Shown here piece after piece: positions 9,098 to 64,000 of a DNA stretch of 64,000 nucleotides. The position numbers and the translations under genes are program-made. Under the pieces are notes generated by a model. That model did no database searches. It saw nothing but the letters and a program-made list of their open reading frames with translations, and was not told the DNA's origin. Positions within the stretch are counted from its first letter, which is position 1. Every line of letters starts with the position of its first letter. Source of the DNA: Asanoa ferruginea (GTDB lineage Bacteria > Actinomycetota > Actinomycetes > Mycobacteriales > Micromonosporaceae); NCBI RefSeq assembly GCF_003387075.1, contig NZ_QUMQ01000001.1, positions 124,001-188,000 of the forward strand, read 5' to 3'.

Positions 9098-10228
9098 TCA
9101 GGCTAGGTCGCGGGCGAACGGCCAGCGGCGGCCGACGGCCACGTGGGTGATGACCGAGAAGGCCAGCGCGTTGAGGCAGGCGTGCACCACGAACTCGCTC
9201 GGCTCGAAGTGGCCGAAGTTGACCGTGTGCGCATAGGCGGTCAGCACCACATACAGGATCACGGCCACCGCCGACACCGTCGTCACCGACAGCCACTTGT
9301 CCATCGTCGCCGTGATGTGGGGGCGGACCGCGTTCTCGAACAGCATCGAGACCGACAGGGCCGCAGCGGTGAAGGCCGCCGCGCCCGCGATGATCAACCC
9401 AGGACTGACCGCGAGATGGATCAAGGTGTACGTGGCCCAGCCGCCCGCGATCACGCAGACATTGGCCACCGACAGCCGCAGCCAGCGGCGCTGGATCAGG
9501 TTGAACGGCCAGCCTCGCCACGTGACGTAGAGCCACGTCTGCCACGCCCCGGTCGTCACCAGCAGCGCACCGAGCGACGCACCGGCCATCGGGCCCGTCT
9601 GGGTGTGCAAGCCGGACGACGGCGGTGGCCGCACGTCAGCGACGAAGTAGTAGACCAACAGCGCGGCACCGAACGCGAGCACCCCGGCGAGCAACCCAGC
9701 CGGCACCCGCCGCCGCAGCTTGCGCAGCGGCCAGCCCTCGCACACCAGCGTGAACTGGAGCATCGCCGCGAAAGCGGCGCCGGCCAGCGGCAACGTGGCC
9801 GGGAACGTCGGCAGGTGGCCCGGGCCCGGGTTCGGGTCGAACACCCCCCGCGGATCGACCCCGCCGGCTATCAGTTGGCCGAGAAACGTGAGCCCGACCC
9901 CGAACGCCACGATGAACAGCGTGTTGAGCCACCCGGCCAACCAGCGCGGCGCGAGTGCCGTCCCGGGCCAGTCCTCCCACCAGAACGCCACGATGGCGAC
10001 CGGCACCAGCGAGTAGGTGACCAGCGGGCCGATCACCACCAACGACCGGGCCGGGCCGTCCAGGGCGAACGCCAGGGCCGCCGCGATCGGGATCACCAAC
10101 AGCAGCCCGGCCGCGCCCAGCCACGGTTGGCGCGCGACGCTGCGTTCGATCAGCGAACGGACGGCCGGCCTCTGCTCCCGCGTTGGAGCGCTGATGGCCG
10201 GCCGTTCAGGTAACGCCTCAGCCGGCAC
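9098..10228 (-). CDS. Polytopic membrane protein coupled to molybdenum hydroxylase genes
   Basis: A 376-residue protein starting with GTG, with about nine or ten membrane segments (for example GAAGLLLVIPIAAALAFAL, VTYSLVPVAIVAFWW, LNTLFIVAFGVGLTFLG, AAALSVSMLFENAV). It has Trp-rich loops (WWEDWPGTALAP, TWRGWPFNLIQRRW) and a C-terminal His in VITHVAVGRRWPF. I do not recognise the family. Its start overlaps the last 11 bases of the molybdopterin subunit, so it is the final gene of that operon and may serve the enzyme as a membrane partner or transporter. That is inference from coupling alone. Confidence 0.6.
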   Translation of the reverse strand: MPAEALPERPAISAPTREQRPAVRSLIERSVARQPWLGAAGLLLVIPIAAALAFALDGPARSLVVIGPLVTYSLVPVAIVAFWWEDWPGTALAPRWLAGWLNTLFIVAFGVGLTFLGQLIAGGVDPRGVFDPNPGPGHLPTFPATLPLAGAAFAAMLQFTLVCEGWPLRKLRRRVPAGLLAGVLAFGAALLVYYFVADVRPPPSSGLHTQTGPMAGASLGALLVTTGAWQTWLYVTWRGWPFNLIQRRWLRLSVANVCVIAGGWATYTLIHLAVSPGLIIAGAAAFTAAALSVSMLFENAVRPHITATMDKWLSVTTVSAVAVILYVVLTAYAHTVNFGHFEPSEFVVHACLNALAFSVITHVAVGRRWPFARDLA

Positions 10229-12461
10229 CGTTCATCACGACCTCGGCGGTCATCGGCAGTTCGTTCATCCGGCGGCCGGTGGCGTGGAAGACCGCGTTGG
10301 CGATCGCCGCCGCGGCGCCGACCTGGCCCACCTCGCCGACGCCCTTCACACCCAGCGGGCCGACCACGTCGTCTTCGACCTCAACGAACTCGACCTGGAT
10401 GTCGGGGATGTCGGCGTGCACCGGCACCAGATACTCGCCCAGGTTGTTGAGCGCCCAGCGGCCGCTCTGCCGGTCGATCTGGTTGCCCTCCAGCAGCGCC
10501 TGCGAGAGGCCCCACAGCATCCCGCCGAGCAGTTGACTGCGGGCCAGCTTCGGGTTGAGCACCCGGCCGGGCGCGAACACGCCCAGCATCCGGCGTACCC
10601 GGACCAGCCCCAGGTCCTTGTCGACGGCCACCTCAGCGAACTGGGCGCCGAACGTGAGCAGCCCGTGCGGGGTGTCCAGCGGCGGCGGCGTCCACGAGCC
10701 GAGCGCCTCCATGTCGAGCAGCCGGTTGCGTTGCAGCAGGTCCGAATAGGACTCGGAGATCGACGGGTCCAGAGTGGACGTCATCCGCCCATCGGCGACC
10801 CGCACCGAGCTCGGCGACAGGCCGTGCAGCGGCGACTTGTCGTCGTTGACGGCGTGGGCGATCAGGTCGTTGCGCAACGTCGTGGCCGCGTTGTGCACGG
10901 CCGACGATGCCATCGTGGCGCCCATCGAGCCGACCGCCGACGTCGAGTTGGGCAGGTCGGTGTCGCCGGCCTCGAAGCGCAGCACGTCCATGTCGACGCC
11001 CAGCCCGTCGGCGCCGACCTGCGACATCGAGGTGGTGACGCCGATGCCGAACTCCTGCGCGCTGGTCTGGATGACCACGCTGCCGTCGTTGAAGATCCGG
11101 GCCCGGGCGTGCTGCACGGGCATCATGAACGCCACCGGATAGCCGGCGCTGGCCACGCCGGTGCCGATCAGGTTGTTGCCCTCCTGCCGGATGCCCGGCC
11201 GCGGGTCACGGTAGGACCAGCCGAAAAGCGAGGCCCCGCGCCGGAGGCAGTCCGCCAAGCCGTCGCTGGACCACGTGTTGCCGTGGTTGTCGACCGGCGG
11301 GTGGTTCATGATGCGCAACTCGACCGGATCCATATCCAGCTCGTACGCCAGCCGGTCCATCCCGGTCTCCAGCGTGAACGACCCGAGCGACTCACCCGGC
11401 GCCCGGGTGAACGTCGGCGTCATCGTGTTGCCCTTGATCAGGCTGTGCATGCCCAGATAGTTGGCGCAGCCGTAGATCTGCGTCGACGTGCCGGTGGCCG
11501 GCTCGGCCCAGTCGTCGAACGGCGAGGTGACCGAGGTCTTCTGGTGCCGGATCGCGGTCAGCATCCCGTCCCGGCCGGCGCCGAGCGTGATCCGCTGCTC
11601 CTGCTCCTCGCGGTGGCCGTTGGAGGTGAAGGTCTGCGGCCGGGTGAGCGTGAGCCGCACCGGGCGCCGGACGTGCCGGGCGGCCAGCGCGGCCAGCGTC
11701 ACGTGCGGCCAGACCATCGCCTTGGAGCCGAAGCCGCCGCCGACGAAGTGGGTGATCACCCGGACGTCGGACAGCGGGATGCCGAGCAGCGTCGCGACGG
11801 TGAGCTGGCTGGCGCGTACCCCCATGGTGGAGTCCCAGAGGGTGAGCCGGTCGCCGTCCCACTGCGCGGTCGTCACCGAGGGCTCGAGCGGATTGTGGTG
11901 GTTGGCCGCGAAGTGGTAGGTCGCGTCGACGGTCACCTCGGCCGAGGCCAGGGCGCCGGCGACATCACCGCGCTCGTCGCGGGCCGGCATCAGACCACCG
12001 AAGAGCATTTTGGCTTCGTACGCCTGGGAACGCCCGTCTTCGATCGTGGCGACCGGCACCCCGACGTCGTAGGTGATGTCGAGCAGCCGGGCGGCGTGCG
12101 CGGCCTGCTCCTGCGACTCGGCGACCATCAGCGCGACCGGCTGGCCCCAGTAGTGGACAACGTCGTCCTGGAGCGGGAAGAAGCTCTCACCCGGCGCGGG
12201 CTGGCCGGCCAGCGAGGGCAGCAGGTGCGGCTGGTTGGCGATCTTGGTCGTGTTCTCGTGGGTCATGATGGCGAGCACGCCCCCGGCCTCCTCGGCCGCG
12301 GTCGTGTCGATCGACACCACCCGCCCGTTGGCGATCGAGGAGCCGACCATCAGCCCGTACGCGAGGCCGGGCAGCACGATCTCGCCGCAGTAGCGGCCGG
12401 TGCCGGTGACCTTGTCCGGCCCGTCGACCCGGTTGACCGGCTTGCCCAGGACCGGGCTCAT
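10218..12461 (-). CDS. Molybdenum hydroxylase, molybdopterin-binding large subunit (xanthine dehydrogenase/aldehyde oxidase family)
   Basis: A 747-residue subunit of the xanthine dehydrogenase family, close in organisation to YagR. The N-terminus KPVNRVDGPDKVTGTGRY is the aldehyde oxidase/xanthine dehydrogenase a/b hammerhead start. HFVGGGFGSKAMVWPH binds the molybdopterin, and GVKGVGEVGQVGAAAA near the C-terminus carries the catalytic Glu. With the FAD and 2Fe-2S subunits upstream it should oxidise an aldehyde or N-heterocycle. ATG at 12461 has a GGGAGG ribosome site 8-9 bases upstream and overlaps the stop of the 25-codon mini-ORF by ATGA, so it is preferred over starts farther upstream. 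Confidence 0.9.
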   Translation of the reverse strand: MSPVLGKPVNRVDGPDKVTGTGRYCGEIVLPGLAYGLMVGSSIANGRVVSIDTTAAEEAGGVLAIMTHENTTKIANQPHLLPSLAGQPAPGESFFPLQDDVVHYWGQPVALMVAESQEQAAHAARLLDITYDVGVPVATIEDGRSQAYEAKMLFGGLMPARDERGDVAGALASAEVTVDATYHFAANHHNPLEPSVTTAQWDGDRLTLWDSTMGVRASQLTVATLLGIPLSDVRVITHFVGGGFGSKAMVWPHVTLAALAARHVRRPVRLTLTRPQTFTSNGHREEQEQRITLGAGRDGMLTAIRHQKTSVTSPFDDWAEPATGTSTQIYGCANYLGMHSLIKGNTMTPTFTRAPGESLGSFTLETGMDRLAYELDMDPVELRIMNHPPVDNHGNTWSSDGLADCLRRGASLFGWSYRDPRPGIRQEGNNLIGTGVASAGYPVAFMMPVQHARARIFNDGSVVIQTSAQEFGIGVTTSMSQVGADGLGVDMDVLRFEAGDTDLPNSTSAVGSMGATMASSAVHNAATTLRNDLIAHAVNDDKSPLHGLSPSSVRVADGRMTSTLDPSISESYSDLLQRNRLLDMEALGSWTPPPLDTPHGLLTFGAQFAEVAVDKDLGLVRVRRMLGVFAPGRVLNPKLARSQLLGGMLWGLSQALLEGNQIDRQSGRWALNNLGEYLVPVHADIPDIQVEFVEVEDDVVGPLGVKGVGEVGQVGAAAAIANAVFHATGRRMNELPMTAEVVMNGAG

Positions 12462-12535
12462 GCCGCCGCCTCCCTTCGGTCGGCGGAGCAAGAGCCCCAG
12501 GGGCTGCGTTGACCGCGCTCGCTTCGCTCGCTCAT
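12458..12535 (-). CDS. 25-codon linker mini-ORF between FAD and Mo subunit genes
   Basis: The 78-bp frame runs from an ATG overlapping the FAD-subunit stop (ATGA, 12532-12535) to a TGA overlapping the Mo-subunit start (ATGA, 12458-12461). The peptide begins MSERSERG, has GSC at 14-16 and DRRE at 19-22. A second 78-bp mini-ORF with the same length, junctions and matching positions sits at 62561-62638. The end of this frame supplies the GGGAGG ribosome site of the Mo subunit. It may act as a translational bridge rather than encode a working peptide. Confidence 0.55.
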   Translation of the reverse strand: MSERSERGQRSPWGSCSADRREAAA

Positions 12536-13518
12536 GAGGAGATCACCTCGCTCAGCTCGCGGACGATCGCCCGCTTGGCGAACGTCACCTTGAACTCGTT
12601 CATCGGCCGGGTGACGGCGTCGCGCAGTTCCGCGTCGGCGGCGGCGGCGAAGTTCTCGACCGTCGCGGGCCGGCCGATCAGCGCCTCCTCGGCGCGGTGC
12701 GCCCGCCACGGCACGGTGCCCACGCCGCCGAGGGCGAGCCGCAGTTCGGAGACGTGGCCGGCCTCGTCGACCCGCATCGCGGAGAAGACCGACACCAGCG
12801 CGAACTCGTAGGAGACGCGGTCGCGGTGTTTGACGTAGCGGGACGCGCGCGCGACCGGCAGATCGGGCACGTCGATCGCCACGATCAGCTCGCCGTGCGC
12901 CAGCGGGTGCTCGACGCTCGGGGTGTCCTCAGGGCGCAGGAAGAAGCTCTCGATCGGGATCGTCCGCGTGCCGTCCGGGCCGATGGTGCGCACCGTGGCG
13001 TCGAGCGCGACCAGCGCCACCGCCACGTCCGACGGGTGGGTCGCGATGCACTGGTCGGAGGTGCCCAGGATCGCGTGGCCGCGGTTGACCCCGTTCATCG
13101 CCGAGCAGCCACTGCCCGGCTCGCGCTTGTTGCACGGCGACTGGCCGTCGCGGAAGTAGGCGCAGCGGGTGCGCTGGCACATGTTGCCGCCCATCGACGC
13201 CATGTTGCGCAACTGCTCGGACGCGCCCAGCAGCAATGCCTGCGACATGCCCGGGTAGCGCTCGACGATCCGCGGTGCCCGGGCGACGTCGCTCATCCGG
13301 GCCATCGCGCCGATGCGTACACCTCCGTTGTCGGTGTCTTCGAGATAGGTCAACGGCAGGTCGTTGACGTCGACGAGCAACGACGGCGCGATCACGCCCA
13401 GCCGGACCAGGTCGATCTCGGTCGTGCCGCCGGCCAGGAACGCGCTGTCCGGGTTGGCGCTGACCGCGGCGACCGCGTCGTCGATGGAACCGGCCCGGAA
13501 GAAGCTCAACGGCCGCAT
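12532..13518 (-). CDS. Molybdenum hydroxylase FAD-binding subunit
   Basis: A 328-residue FAD_binding_5/CO dehydrogenase-flavoprotein-type subunit, YagS-like. FLAGGTTEIDLV near residue 30 is the FAD pyrophosphate motif. The region around NMASMGGNMCQRTRCAYFRD followed by HAILGTSDQCIATHPSDVAVAL is typical of YagS relatives; extra cysteines there (RTRCAYFRD, PCNKREPGSGCSAM) match the YagS subgroup that binds an additional [4Fe-4S] cluster. The start lies one base after the 2Fe-2S subunit stop, and its stop overlaps the mini-ORF start. Confidence 0.9.
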   Translation of the reverse strand: MRPLSFFRAGSIDDAVAAVSANPDSAFLAGGTTEIDLVRLGVIAPSLLVDVNDLPLTYLEDTDNGGVRIGAMARMSDVARAPRIVERYPGMSQALLLGASEQLRNMASMGGNMCQRTRCAYFRDGQSPCNKREPGSGCSAMNGVNRGHAILGTSDQCIATHPSDVAVALVALDATVRTIGPDGTRTIPIESFFLRPEDTPSVEHPLAHGELIVAIDVPDLPVARASRYVKHRDRVSYEFALVSVFSAMRVDEAGHVSELRLALGGVGTVPWRAHRAEEALIGRPATVENFAAAADAELRDAVTRPMNEFKVTFAKRAIVRELSEVISS

Positions 13519-61682: not shown

Positions 61683-62564
61683 TCAGAACCCCAGCTTGCG
61701 GAGCTGCCGGGGGTCGCGCTGCCACTCCTTGGCGACGCGGACGTGCAGGTCGAGGTAGACCCGGCGACCCAGGAGCGCCTCGATCTCCTGGCGCGAGCGG
61801 GTGCCGATCTCCTTGAGCCGGCTCGCCCGGGCCCCGATCACGATAGCTTTCTGACTTTGGCGTTCCACGTACACGTCGGCATAGATCTTGGTGATGTTGT
61901 CTTCGTCGAACATCTCCTCGACGACCACGGCGATCGAGTGGGGCAGTTCGTCGCGGACGCCCTCGAGCGCGGCCTCGCGGACCAGTTCCGCGATCAGCAC
62001 CTGCTCGGGCTCGTCGGTGATCATGTCGTCGGGGTAGAGCCGCGGCGAGTCGGGCAGGAAGCCGGTGACGACGTCGACCAGGGTCTCGACCTGCTCGCCG
62101 GTGACCGCGCTGACCGGGACCACGTCGGCGAACTCGGCCAGCTCACCGACGGCGGCGAGCTGCCGGGCCAGGGTGGCCCGGTCGACCAGGTCGGTCTTGG
62201 TCACCACGGCGATCACGGTGGCCTTGAGCTCGGCCAGCTCGCCGGAGATGAACTTGTCGCCGCGGCCGACCGGCTCGTTGGCCGGCATGCACAGGCCGAT
62301 CACGTCGACCTCGCTCCAGGTCGACCGGACCAGGTCGTTGAGGCGCTCGCCGAGCAGCGTGCGGGGCCGGTGCAGACCGGGGGTGTCGACCAGCACGAGC
62401 TGGGACTCCGGGCGGTGCAGCACGGCGCGGATCACGTGCCGGGTGGTCTGCGGCTTGCTCGACGTGATCGCGATCTTCTGGCCGACGATCGCGTTGGTCA
62501 GGGTCGACTTGCCGGCGTTGGGGCGGCCGACGAAGCAGGCGAACCCGGCCTTGTAATTGGTCAT
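61683..62564 (-). CDS. era: GTPase Era
   Basis: A 293-residue Era GTPase that binds 16S rRNA and helps 30S subunit assembly. G motifs are GRPNAGKST (13-21), the TT in PQTTRHV, DTPG in LVDTPGLHRP, TKTD in VVTKTDLVD, and SAVTGEQ. The C-terminal KH domain is seen as QKAIVIGARASRLKEIGTRS and VYLDLHVRVAKEW. ATG 62564 overlaps the TGA of a 25-codon mini-ORF by ATGA, and GAGGTAGG within that frame serves as ribosome site. Confidence 0.95.
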   Translation of the reverse strand: MTNYKAGFACFVGRPNAGKSTLTNAIVGQKIAITSSKPQTTRHVIRAVLHRPESQLVLVDTPGLHRPRTLLGERLNDLVRSTWSEVDVIGLCMPANEPVGRGDKFISGELAELKATVIAVVTKTDLVDRATLARQLAAVGELAEFADVVPVSAVTGEQVETLVDVVTGFLPDSPRLYPDDMITDEPEQVLIAELVREAALEGVRDELPHSIAVVVEEMFDEDNITKIYADVYVERQSQKAIVIGARASRLKEIGTRSRQEIEALLGRRVYLDLHVRVAKEWQRDPRQLRKLGF

Positions 62565-62638
62565 GCGCCTACCTCGCGTCGCTCGGTGACGCACGACCCG
62601 GCTGCTGAGCCGAATGATCCGGCCGCAAGCTCGCTCAT
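62561..62638 (-). CDS. 25-codon linker mini-ORF between deaminase-like gene and era
   Basis: The 78-bp frame starts at an ATG overlapping the deaminase-like stop (ATGA, 62635-62638) and ends at a TGA overlapping the era start (ATGA, 62561-62564). The peptide begins MSELAAGS, has GSC at 14-16 and ERRE at 19-22. It has the same length and junctions as the mini-ORF at 12458-12535. No ribosome site precedes its ATG, so it depends on translation of the upstream gene. Confidence 0.55.
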   Translation of the reverse strand: MSELAAGSFGSAAGSCVTERREVGA

Positions 62639-63000
62639 GCGACGACCGTGCCGAGCACGGTGCCGTCCGGTGCGGCGACGTGGATCGGCGCGTCGGCGGA
62701 CAGGTCGCGGACCACGGCGTGGCCGGCGCCGTCGAGGGTGCTGGCCTCGGTGACCACCGCGGCCGCCTCGATCTTGCTCGCGCCGGCGGCGGCCGCCGAG
62801 GCGACCGCGAGTTGCAGGGCGGTCACGGTCAGCGAGGGCAGGGCGACGGTCGCGGCCGCGTAGGTGCGGCCGTCCTGGTCACGCACCGCGGCGCCCTCGA
62901 CCGCACCGACCCGGGCACGGGCGCCGCGCGCCAGCGTGACCAGCTTGGTGTCCTCTGCGTCGAGGTGAGCAGGTGGCCCGAGTTCGGGCGACTCAAACAT
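62635..63000 (-). CDS. Cytidine-deaminase-like protein lacking the zinc motifs
   Basis: A ~121-residue protein with the general layout of actinobacterial deaminase-like proteins located between the CNNM/CorC gene and era ([41 protein letters not shown]). Active cytidine deaminases need a His/Cys-Ala-Glu motif and PC-x2-C to hold zinc; none is present, and the protein has no Cys. It probably lacks deaminase activity and may be structural. Its start overlaps the CNNM stop by eight bases. Confidence 0.7.
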
Positions 63001-64000
63001 CCGCGGATTGCCTCTCGTCACTGTCTTCGGTCTGGTTCTCATTGTCTCGGTCGGCCCGGCGGACCAGCACGGAGTCGATCCGGTTGCGGCGCCCGACCAC
63101 GCCCTCGGCGACCATGTGCAGGCCGTCGACGGTCGCCTCGGCGCCGGGGATCGGCACGCGGCCGAGCGCCTGGGCCAGCAGGCCGCCGACCGTCTCCACC
63201 TCGTCGGTGGGCAGGTCGACGTCGAACAACTCGCTGAGGTCTTCGACGGGCACCCGCGCGGCGACGCGGACGGCGCCGTTGTCGAGGTGTTCGATCGGTG
63301 GGCGCTCGTTGTCGTATTCGTCGGTGATCTCGCCGACGATCTCTTCCAGGATGTCTTCGATGGTCACCAGGCCGGCGGTGCCGCCGTATTCGTCGACCAC
63401 GACGACCAGGTGGGTGCGCGCCGCCTGCATCTCCGAGAGCAGGTCGTCGACCGGCTTGGACTCGGGCACGAAGGTCGCGTCGCGCATGATCTCGCCGACC
63501 GGCAGGTCTTCGCCGTCGGGGTCGCCCTGGTCGCGGCGGATCACGTCTTTGAGGTAGAGGATGCCGAGCACGTCGTCGACGTTCTCGCCGATCACCGGGA
63601 TGCGGGAGAAGCCCGAGCGCATGAACAGCGCGAGGGCCTGACGCATGGTCTTGTTGCTCTCGATCCACACCATGTCGGTGCGCGGCACCATCACCTCGCG
63701 GGCGATGGTGTCGCCGAGCGCGAACACCGAGTGGATCATCTGCCGCTCGCCGCTCTCCACCACGCCGCGCTGCTCGGCCAGGTCGACCAACTCGCGCAGC
63801 TCGACCTGGGTGGCGAACGGGCCCTCGCGGAAGCCGCGCCCGGGGGTGACCGCGTTGCCGATCAGGATCAGCAGCGAGGCCAGCGGGTTGAGCGCCCGGC
63901 CCAGCCAGCGGACCAGCGGCGCGGTCGCGCGGCCGACGGCGTAGGCGTTCTGCCGGCCTATCGTGCGGGGCGCGACACCGACGACGACGAAGCTGACCAC
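62993..64000 (-). CDS. CNNM/CorC-type CBS domain membrane protein (5' end beyond window)
   Basis: The visible 335 residues are the C-terminal part of a HlyC/CorC-CNNM protein; the N-terminal membrane domain continues past base 64000. [18 protein letters not shown] and [20 protein letters not shown] are CBS repeats, and [20 protein letters not shown] with [11 protein letters not shown] is the pair's end. The CorC_HlyC domain then covers about the last 85 residues. Family members handle Mg2+ or Co2+ export. It is the first of a minus-strand run with the deaminase-like gene, mini-ORF and era. Confidence 0.9.

Follow-up and report, generated by a model that had tools for sequence, protein, structure and literature searches.

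The window, by which we mean the whole stretch of 64,000 nucleotides analyzed here (Asanoa ferruginea, contig NZ_QUMQ01000001.1, positions 124,001 to 188,000), lies in a host genome that forms a single contig of 9.07 Mb. On its minus strand, a gene for an FAD-binding subunit of the molybdopterin dehydrogenase or CO dehydrogenase flavoprotein type (12532..13518; PF00941, PF03450) is located upstream of a gene for a molybdopterin-binding (Mo) subunit (10218..12461; PF02738, PF20256, and PF01315). The two genes are joined by a mini-ORF of 25 codons plus stop (12458..12535, minus strand), which we refer to as element copy 1 and which has relatives in its own genome. Read on the minus strand from 12535 to 12458, its sequence is ATGAGCGAGCGAAGCGAGC...GGGAGGCGGCGGCATGA, its translation is MSERSERGQRSPWGSCSADRREAAA followed by the stop, and it carries ATGA at each end. 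The 5′ ATGA (12532..12535, minus strand) combines the stop of the FAD subunit gene with the start of the mini-ORF, and the 3′ ATGA (12458..12461, minus strand) combines the stop of the mini-ORF with the start of the Mo subunit gene. The last 36 nt (12458..12493, minus strand) are predicted to form a hairpin that extends into the downstream start codon (folding z −2.6), and a Shine-Dalgarno-like GGAGG (12469..12473, minus strand), 7 nt upstream of the next ATG, lies partly within the hairpin stem. Carriage of the element by plasmids was dropped as an explanation, given that a search of PLSDB with copy 1 (distant mode, E 1e-5) returned no match.

A second coupled mini-ORF of 25 codons plus stop, coding for a peptide of the MSELAAG... 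type (element copy 2, 62561..62638, minus strand), also ends in a predicted hairpin (62561..62596, minus strand; folding z −3.4). It follows a gene for a protein of 135 amino acids with no Pfam match (62635..63042, minus strand) and precedes a gene for an Era-like GTPase with a GTPase and a KH domain (61683..62564, minus strand; PF01926, PF07650). Two sequence models were used in this work. Model R1 is a sequence-only model of 11 copies, copy 2 included, and model R2 comprises 45 copies, none of them from a record with Asanoa or Mycobacterium in its title. R2 matches copy 2 at 41.6 bits (E 3.1e-10). Since a model built in this way finds copy 2, this copy is, judging by the match, a true relative of the family to which copy 1 belongs. 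A preliminary description of this DNA had pointed out 78-bp frames with ATGA at both ends at two places; both frames are confirmed, and they belong to the same repeat family.

Family Size, Layout and Spread

A BLAST search with copy 1 found 13 places in its own genome, including itself and a tandem array, and the 12 further places matched at E 4.8e-20 to 5e-4. R1 finds 25 matches in this genome (E ≤ 1e-4), and further copies, which the preliminary description had proposed to seek in related genomes, are present in all six Asanoa genomes, with 8–25 matches each and 98 in total. These copies share descent, and the counts given here are to be read as counts of related rather than independent sequences. 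Most of the matches have the same architecture: 85 of the 98 are mini-ORFs of at most 40 codons (66–105 nt, 82 distinct sequences) that end in NTGA. Of these 85, 76 lead directly into a downstream frame of 60 codons or more, 75 are preceded by a frame of that length, and 67 have both. The identical length of the two copies in the window, which had been singled out as notable, is simply usual in the genus, where 46 of the 85 mini-ORFs measure 78 nt and another 28 measure 81 nt. The first letters of the NTGA at the 5′ and 3′ ends are A/A in 65 cases, G/A in 10, G/G in 6, and A/G in 4. Among the 13 matches that depart from this layout are arrays whose units meet at GTGAGTGA joints, copies fused in frame, others that are truncated or degenerate, and one match that represents half of a longer unit.

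Some loci of the host genome deserve separate mention. At G000:C1:2902600-2902839 (L029), tandem units of 82, 82, and 84 nt form one frame of 79 codons, which still ends in an ATGA where a frame of 357 codons starts. At G000:C1:7933784-7933864 and 7934496-7934576 there are two copies of the MRELATES/MSELASES type, which lie about 630 bp apart and possibly flank one gene. Three weak matches (L049, L050, and L052) are NTGA-bounded frames of about 60 nt that correspond to the 3′ part of the element only, a layout that resembles that of the mycobacterial repeats known as MIRUs.

Beyond the genus, R2 matches 91 of 121 Micromonosporaceae genomes, which represent 32 of 44 genera; the counts per genome are lower bounds (at least 37 at the maximum). 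The 20-base 5′ motif ATGAGCGAGCGMAGCGAGCG occurs in at least 120 stretches of GTDB genomes. Among the matches listed, the genera are Micromonospora, Catellatospora, Planosporangium, Phytohabitans, Nonomuraea, Microbispora, Nocardia, Nocardioides, Aeromicrobium, Streptomyces, Kitasatospora, Flexivirga, Kribbella, one Mycobacterium, and others. The exact motif is rare in a sample of the phylum in which other classes predominate (6 of 396 genomes, including the host; reversed control 0). The same layout is found in other actinobacteria. The peptide start MSERSER recurs across them as well, but the search pattern itself imposes these residues, and the C-terminal parts of the peptides vary among lineages. 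Two of the 120 listed stretches are not actinobacterial. The motif copy on a Peptococcaceae contig (L117) is not coupled, and the one on a Magnetospirillum metagenome contig (L198) lies in an ATGA-ended frame of 34 codons that obeys the frame rule and has no hairpin; chance, transfer, or mis-binning may account for both.

GC-rich DNA is rich in long frames, and the meaningful figure is therefore the contrast with control sites. Among the matches listed for the 120 loci, 102 motif copies lie within bounds, and 77 of these start a mini-ORF of at most 60 codons that leads to an NTGA opening a frame of at least 60 codons; the corresponding figures for this DNA are 34 of 449 other ATGAGC sites and 263 of 3522 other ATGA sites. 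At 59 of the 102 listed copies there is also a frame of 60 codons or more upstream that ends in the first TGA, as compared to 11 of 449 and 78 of 3522 control sites. When the frame is not presupposed, the first NTGA (27–150 nt) that opens at least 100 codons is in phase in 81 of 95 cases among the matches listed. At L080, L156, and similar loci the motif copies are in frame with the next gene and form an N-terminal extension, which may mislead the annotation of start sites.

One could suppose that two unrelated short frames came to lie between packed genes of a GC-rich genome by chance, and the 34 control ATGAGC sites with short NTGA-bounded frames show that such frames do arise. The 12 further BLAST places, the model matches in every Asanoa genome, and the empty sites and hairpin covariation described below refute this explanation, to which we assign a practically negligible probability. 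A known RNA family was rejected as the identity of the element, as a search of five loci against Rfam at gathering score gave 0 matches to curated families.

Filled and Empty Sites

Comparison of sister species shows what the loci look like where the element is missing. For four filled sites compared with the five other Asanoa genomes, the unit is absent in 19 of 20 cases, and each of the 17 junctions that were read consists of a single ATGA. At the site of copy 1, all five congeners have such a joint. From these empty sites it follows that insertion of copy 1 adds 74 bp and leaves ATGA on both sides. At the site of copy 2, a single ATGA is present in G001 and G003; for G002 and G005, absence of the element is judged from BLAST spacing only. 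In the remaining genome (G004; L230, C10), this site is occupied by a different ATGA-bounded frame of 30 codons, MTASMRPDHPASVRGPRGSYRGSRTEAAA plus stop, which R2 matches weakly (E 0.67); this frame either stems from a separate insertion at the site or is a copy that has diverged greatly.

The third site belongs to a copy in G001, and the five other genomes again have a single ATGA there. Because all five share this ATGA, the 5′ GTGA of the G001 copy must be derived. This case bears on the idea that insertion strictly duplicates the first letter of NTGA. The end letters, which do not always agree, give this idea no support; yet the one G/A site that was checked derives from ATGA. The fourth site (L030, G000:C1:4019674-4020065) is a VNTR-like locus with five near-identical tandem units of 77 bp between co-oriented frames, and all five congeners lack any unit and have a single ATGA instead.

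An orthologous copy in other Asanoa genomes was found by comparison of the flanks for 19 of 67 copies, at seven sites that are shared by 2–4 species each, and some of these shared sites could have received the element more than once. Other genera of the Micromonosporaceae, more distant from Asanoa, have spacers of varied length and sequence at both junctions of the window. The junction orthologous to that of the FAD and Mo subunit genes in one of these genera (L219, G025) contains a longer insert starting with ATGAGCGAGCC, possibly another element. The preliminary description had placed weight on such orthologous gene pairs, expecting spacers of unrelated sequence and random length if its proposal were wrong. 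Within the genus we find empty ATGA joints and no random spacers, and only the more distant genera have spacers of varied length. Its proposal of a mobile or duplicating linker that couples genes is well supported by the dispersed and tandem copies, the single-ATGA empty sites, and the retained frame. We consider the repeat to be dispersed and, from its presence and absence between species, evidently mobile. Insertion preference and selection against other sites both fit the placement at NTGA.

The 3′ Hairpin and the Reading Frame

Folding of single copies suggests that the last 36 nt of the element are structured well beyond expectation (mean z −2.9; z below −1 in 73 of 82). In a matched comparison (n = 67) the mean z is −3.2 for this segment and 0.1 for the 36 nt that end at the 5′ ATGA. 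The fold appears to reach the downstream start codon, since at least one base of this ATG is paired in 74 of 82 predicted folds and all three bases are paired in 38 of 82. On an alignment of the 98 genus matches made with a structure-free model, a hairpin of 11 pairs has 73.1% of its cells paired. The pairs were taken from one copy (L274), and part of the advantage in paired cells over slid versions is therefore inherent in this choice. Nine of the 11 pairs contain two-sided changes. Such changes occur in 120 cells, as compared to 20–42 for slid versions of the hairpin and 49.3 (sd 5.1) for shuffled alignments, none of which in 500 reached the observed value, a test that is inflated by the kinship of the copies. 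RNAalifold predicts only four of the 11 pairs; all four contain two-sided changes, and the energy is close to zero.

Copies from outside the genus have a weaker hairpin (single-sequence mean z −1.7; 54 of 85 below −1), and Aeromicrobium copies are mostly without it. The consensus structure of the class-wide alignment A3 consists of four never-varying pairs in the 5′ block only, with no covariation support there. The fold persists at one site that is shared by four species. The four copies measure 72, 81, 66, and 81 nt, lengths that are multiples of three apart, all remain in frame, and each has a 3′ hairpin (z −2.5, −5.0, −2.4, and −5.9), one of them with a wholly changed tip; the encoded peptides differ widely.

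This site also bears on the idea, raised in the preliminary description, that the element encodes a family of short peptides. If a peptide of 25–27 residues starting with MSERSER were functional, the frame would be kept for its sake, and the open, NTGA-ended frame of 85 of the 98 genus matches is consistent with this assumption. The recurrence of MSERSER across actinobacteria would be as well, apart from the caveat that the search imposes it. Across the whole 78-nt element, third codon positions vary more than the other two (0.41 versus 0.28–0.29), an excess that leaves room for a weak constraint on the peptide. In the middle of the element, however, variation is almost alike at the three codon positions (0.44, 0.49, and 0.52 in 46 distinct 78-nt copies), the C-terminal parts differ among actinobacterial lineages, and orthologous congener copies have strongly diverged peptides while frame and hairpin are kept. 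In view of the drift of orthologous peptides and the near-equal variation of middle codon positions we rejected a peptide function as the main reading, and we regard it as very improbable that the frame is maintained for its product.

Of 82 elements, 75 contain a GGAGG-like match of at least four of five letters at the usual position, 54 of them 7 nt before the start codon, as compared to a mean of 33 of 82 after shuffling. The native stretch before the 5′ ATGA reaches 51 of 67, and we therefore dropped this match as a special feature of the element; its Shine-Dalgarno-like site seems to be like the native one and no more.

The predicted probability that the region from Shine-Dalgarno sequence to ATG is unpaired is 0.308 with the element and 0.411 with the flanks joined (n = 67, P = 2e-7). 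This lower accessibility could mean that the hairpin acts as an attenuator, which down-regulates or conditions the downstream gene and is kept for the sake of this control. The covariation of the hairpin and the seven sites common to 2–4 species would fit such a role, as does one mycobacterial gene behind such repeats for which, according to PMC2734929, the amount of mRNA fell as repeat length fell. Among the matches of the other Asanoa genomes, orthologous counterparts were found for no more than 19 of 67 copies, which suits a mobile repeat better than a selected regulator, and we consider it unlikely that control of the downstream gene explains the family as a whole. At single old sites an attenuator role may apply.

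The hairpin region contains the sequence CGNAG in 77 of 82 distinct copies, as compared to a mean of 34 after shuffling. In hairpins of the GCGAAGC type the middle loop base is free to vary. The middle base of CGNAG usually coincides with a third codon position, so that by this base a reading as a loop and a reading as codons are inseparable. The enrichment, together with the tetranucleotide at both ends and the subterminal hairpin, is reminiscent of IS200/IS605- or REP-like elements, for which a Y1 (HUH) transposase would cut beside the hairpin with NTGA as the cleavage site. DNA hairpins of the GCGAAGC type are described as extraordinarily stable in PMC10527192. PF01797 has 0 matches in the host genome and was found in only one of the six Asanoa genomes, where the sole match (L328, G003:C6:310197-310409) is partial and contains an internal stop. 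We rejected a Y1/REP transposase as the mover because PF01797 is all but absent in the genus; another or since-lost enzyme may apply. Our estimate is that an origin as a Y1-type element is quite unlikely.

Proposed Mechanism and Relation to MIRUs

These observations are best accommodated by a non-autonomous mobile mini-cistron of actinobacteria that works in a MIRU-like fashion, and we think it very probable that its design combines entry at NTGA, a mini-ORF, a hairpin, and passage by termination and reinitiation. The element would insert at an NTGA that serves as a start codon and usually also contains the stop of the preceding gene, leaving NTGA at both ends. The first NTGA would then retain the upstream stop and provide the start of a mini-ORF of mostly 25–26 codons, and the second would provide the stop of the mini-ORF and the start of the downstream gene. 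In the transcript, the last approximately 36 nt would form a hairpin that encloses the Shine-Dalgarno-like region and, in most cases, part of the start codon as well. A ribosome that has completed the upstream gene may reinitiate on the mini-ORF, unfold the hairpin, terminate at the second NTGA, and begin anew on the downstream gene. The encoded peptide would be a by-product, and selection would act on frame, ends, and hairpin. The sequences themselves show the family, its position at NTGA, the empty sites, the retained frame, and the covariation of the hairpin; translation, reinitiation, a role of the hairpin, and movement by some enzyme are deduced. The downstream gene would come to depend on ribosomes that traverse the mini-ORF, and this dependence would make insertion tolerable within operons. 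A recent review (PMC12548453) outlines two models of translational coupling, in which either a structure that covers the next start is unfolded or the same ribosome reinitiates. With its NTGA ends, its Shine-Dalgarno-like sequence, and a hairpin that reaches the downstream start, the element carries parts for both.

MIRUs are a long-standing typing tool for tuberculosis bacteria, yet little is understood of where they come from, how they move, and what effect they have. Should the same design prove common among harmless soil actinobacteria, the insertion rule and the effect on coupled translation become testable in tractable organisms, and sister species with filled and empty sites lend themselves to such tests. 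The elements also represent natural, ready-made coupling parts, and copies that run in frame into the next gene can mislead gene finders.

The preliminary description knew of no account of such doubly coupled frames and thereby overlooked the MIRUs. These repeats are apparently mobile, insert at start codons, and contain an inner ORF coupled at −4 spacing, according to the 2025 review, which cites Supply et al. 1997 (PMC12548453). Other papers give their size as 46–101 bp at 41 loci (PMC3914561), mention a 77-nt MIRU that acts as a 5′ UTR (PMC4128351), and describe spacers that are long and filled with repeats in the tuberculosis complex but only a few bases long in most of the other mycobacteria listed (PMC2734929). 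Repeats of the MIRU kind are thus already known. Among the matches listed in a search of open-access papers we found no title on such elements outside mycobacteria, and a literature search for "MSERSER" gave nothing relevant, only unrelated plant papers. Within our searches of open-access papers, three points are new: the wide occurrence among actinobacteria, the long form with MSERSER, and the covariation-supported hairpin ahead of the downstream start.

Like MIRUs, the present elements are short dispersed repeats that occur singly or in tandem. They agree with the size range and arrangement of MIRUs (40–100 bp, dispersed, some in tandem), with 66–105 nt, 25 matches in the host genome, and an array of five units. 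They also agree by spacing with insertion at start codons and coupling at −4, given that 85 of 98 end in NTGA and 76 directly open at least 60 codons. The hosts differ, with mycobacteria on one side and Asanoa and other Micromonosporaceae on the other. A MIRU pattern matches 41 of the 78 mycobacterial genomes searched, and its reversed control matches none. Of 31 MIRU units from 30 loci, 16 are mini-ORFs of the form NTGA...NTGA, 11 of them with neighbors of at least 60 codons on both sides, and the other 15 could not be parsed in this way; in this sample MIRUs obey the NTGA rule less neatly. The NTGA-bounded MIRU mini-ORFs are also shorter (54–57 nt in 12 of 16), whereas the present elements mostly measure 78–84 nt. 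In addition, the present elements have a 5′ module, ATGAGCGAGCGNAGCGAGCG, not seen among the MIRU units parsed, a 3′ hairpin that reaches the start codon, and relatives in many other actinobacterial genera.

The MIRU units share the core GAGCGNAGCGA with the present elements. Alignment to MIRU at p < 0.05 relative to shuffles was obtained for 32 of 81 elements (4 expected). R2 matches the MIRU place at 25 of 30 loci (E 2e-5 to 0.8; 8 at E ≤ 0.01), a score that is favored by the retrieval of these loci with the shared-core pattern. At 29 control loci without a known family copy, R2 gives 3 matches at E ≥ 0.2, one of which is the 30-codon frame of G004. We are confident that the present elements would work like MIRU. 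The similarity is suggestive of common descent, with the reservation that the MIRU loci were fetched with a pattern that contains the shared core.

Other small repeats resemble the present family in part. Rickettsia palindromic elements are small mobile repeats whose insertion is tolerated because they stay translatable, and they sit in frame within protein genes, whereas the present elements lie between genes at NTGA. REP and IS200-type repeats, which depend on RAYT or TnpA, are short and non-autonomous and have a hairpin and an end tetranucleotide. The present family differs from them in that five of six Asanoa genomes have no Y1 match and in that the coupled ORF is its own. As a tentative proposal, to which we give somewhat less than an even chance, the present elements and MIRUs may form one ancient actinobacterial superfamily of mobile coupled mini-cistrons that would enter operons precisely where a stop and a start overlap and would supply a start, a stop, a ribosome-binding site, and a hairpin at the start codon of their own. 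MIRUs would then represent a shortened branch, and a putative enzyme would recognize DNA hairpins with GNA loops together with NTGA.
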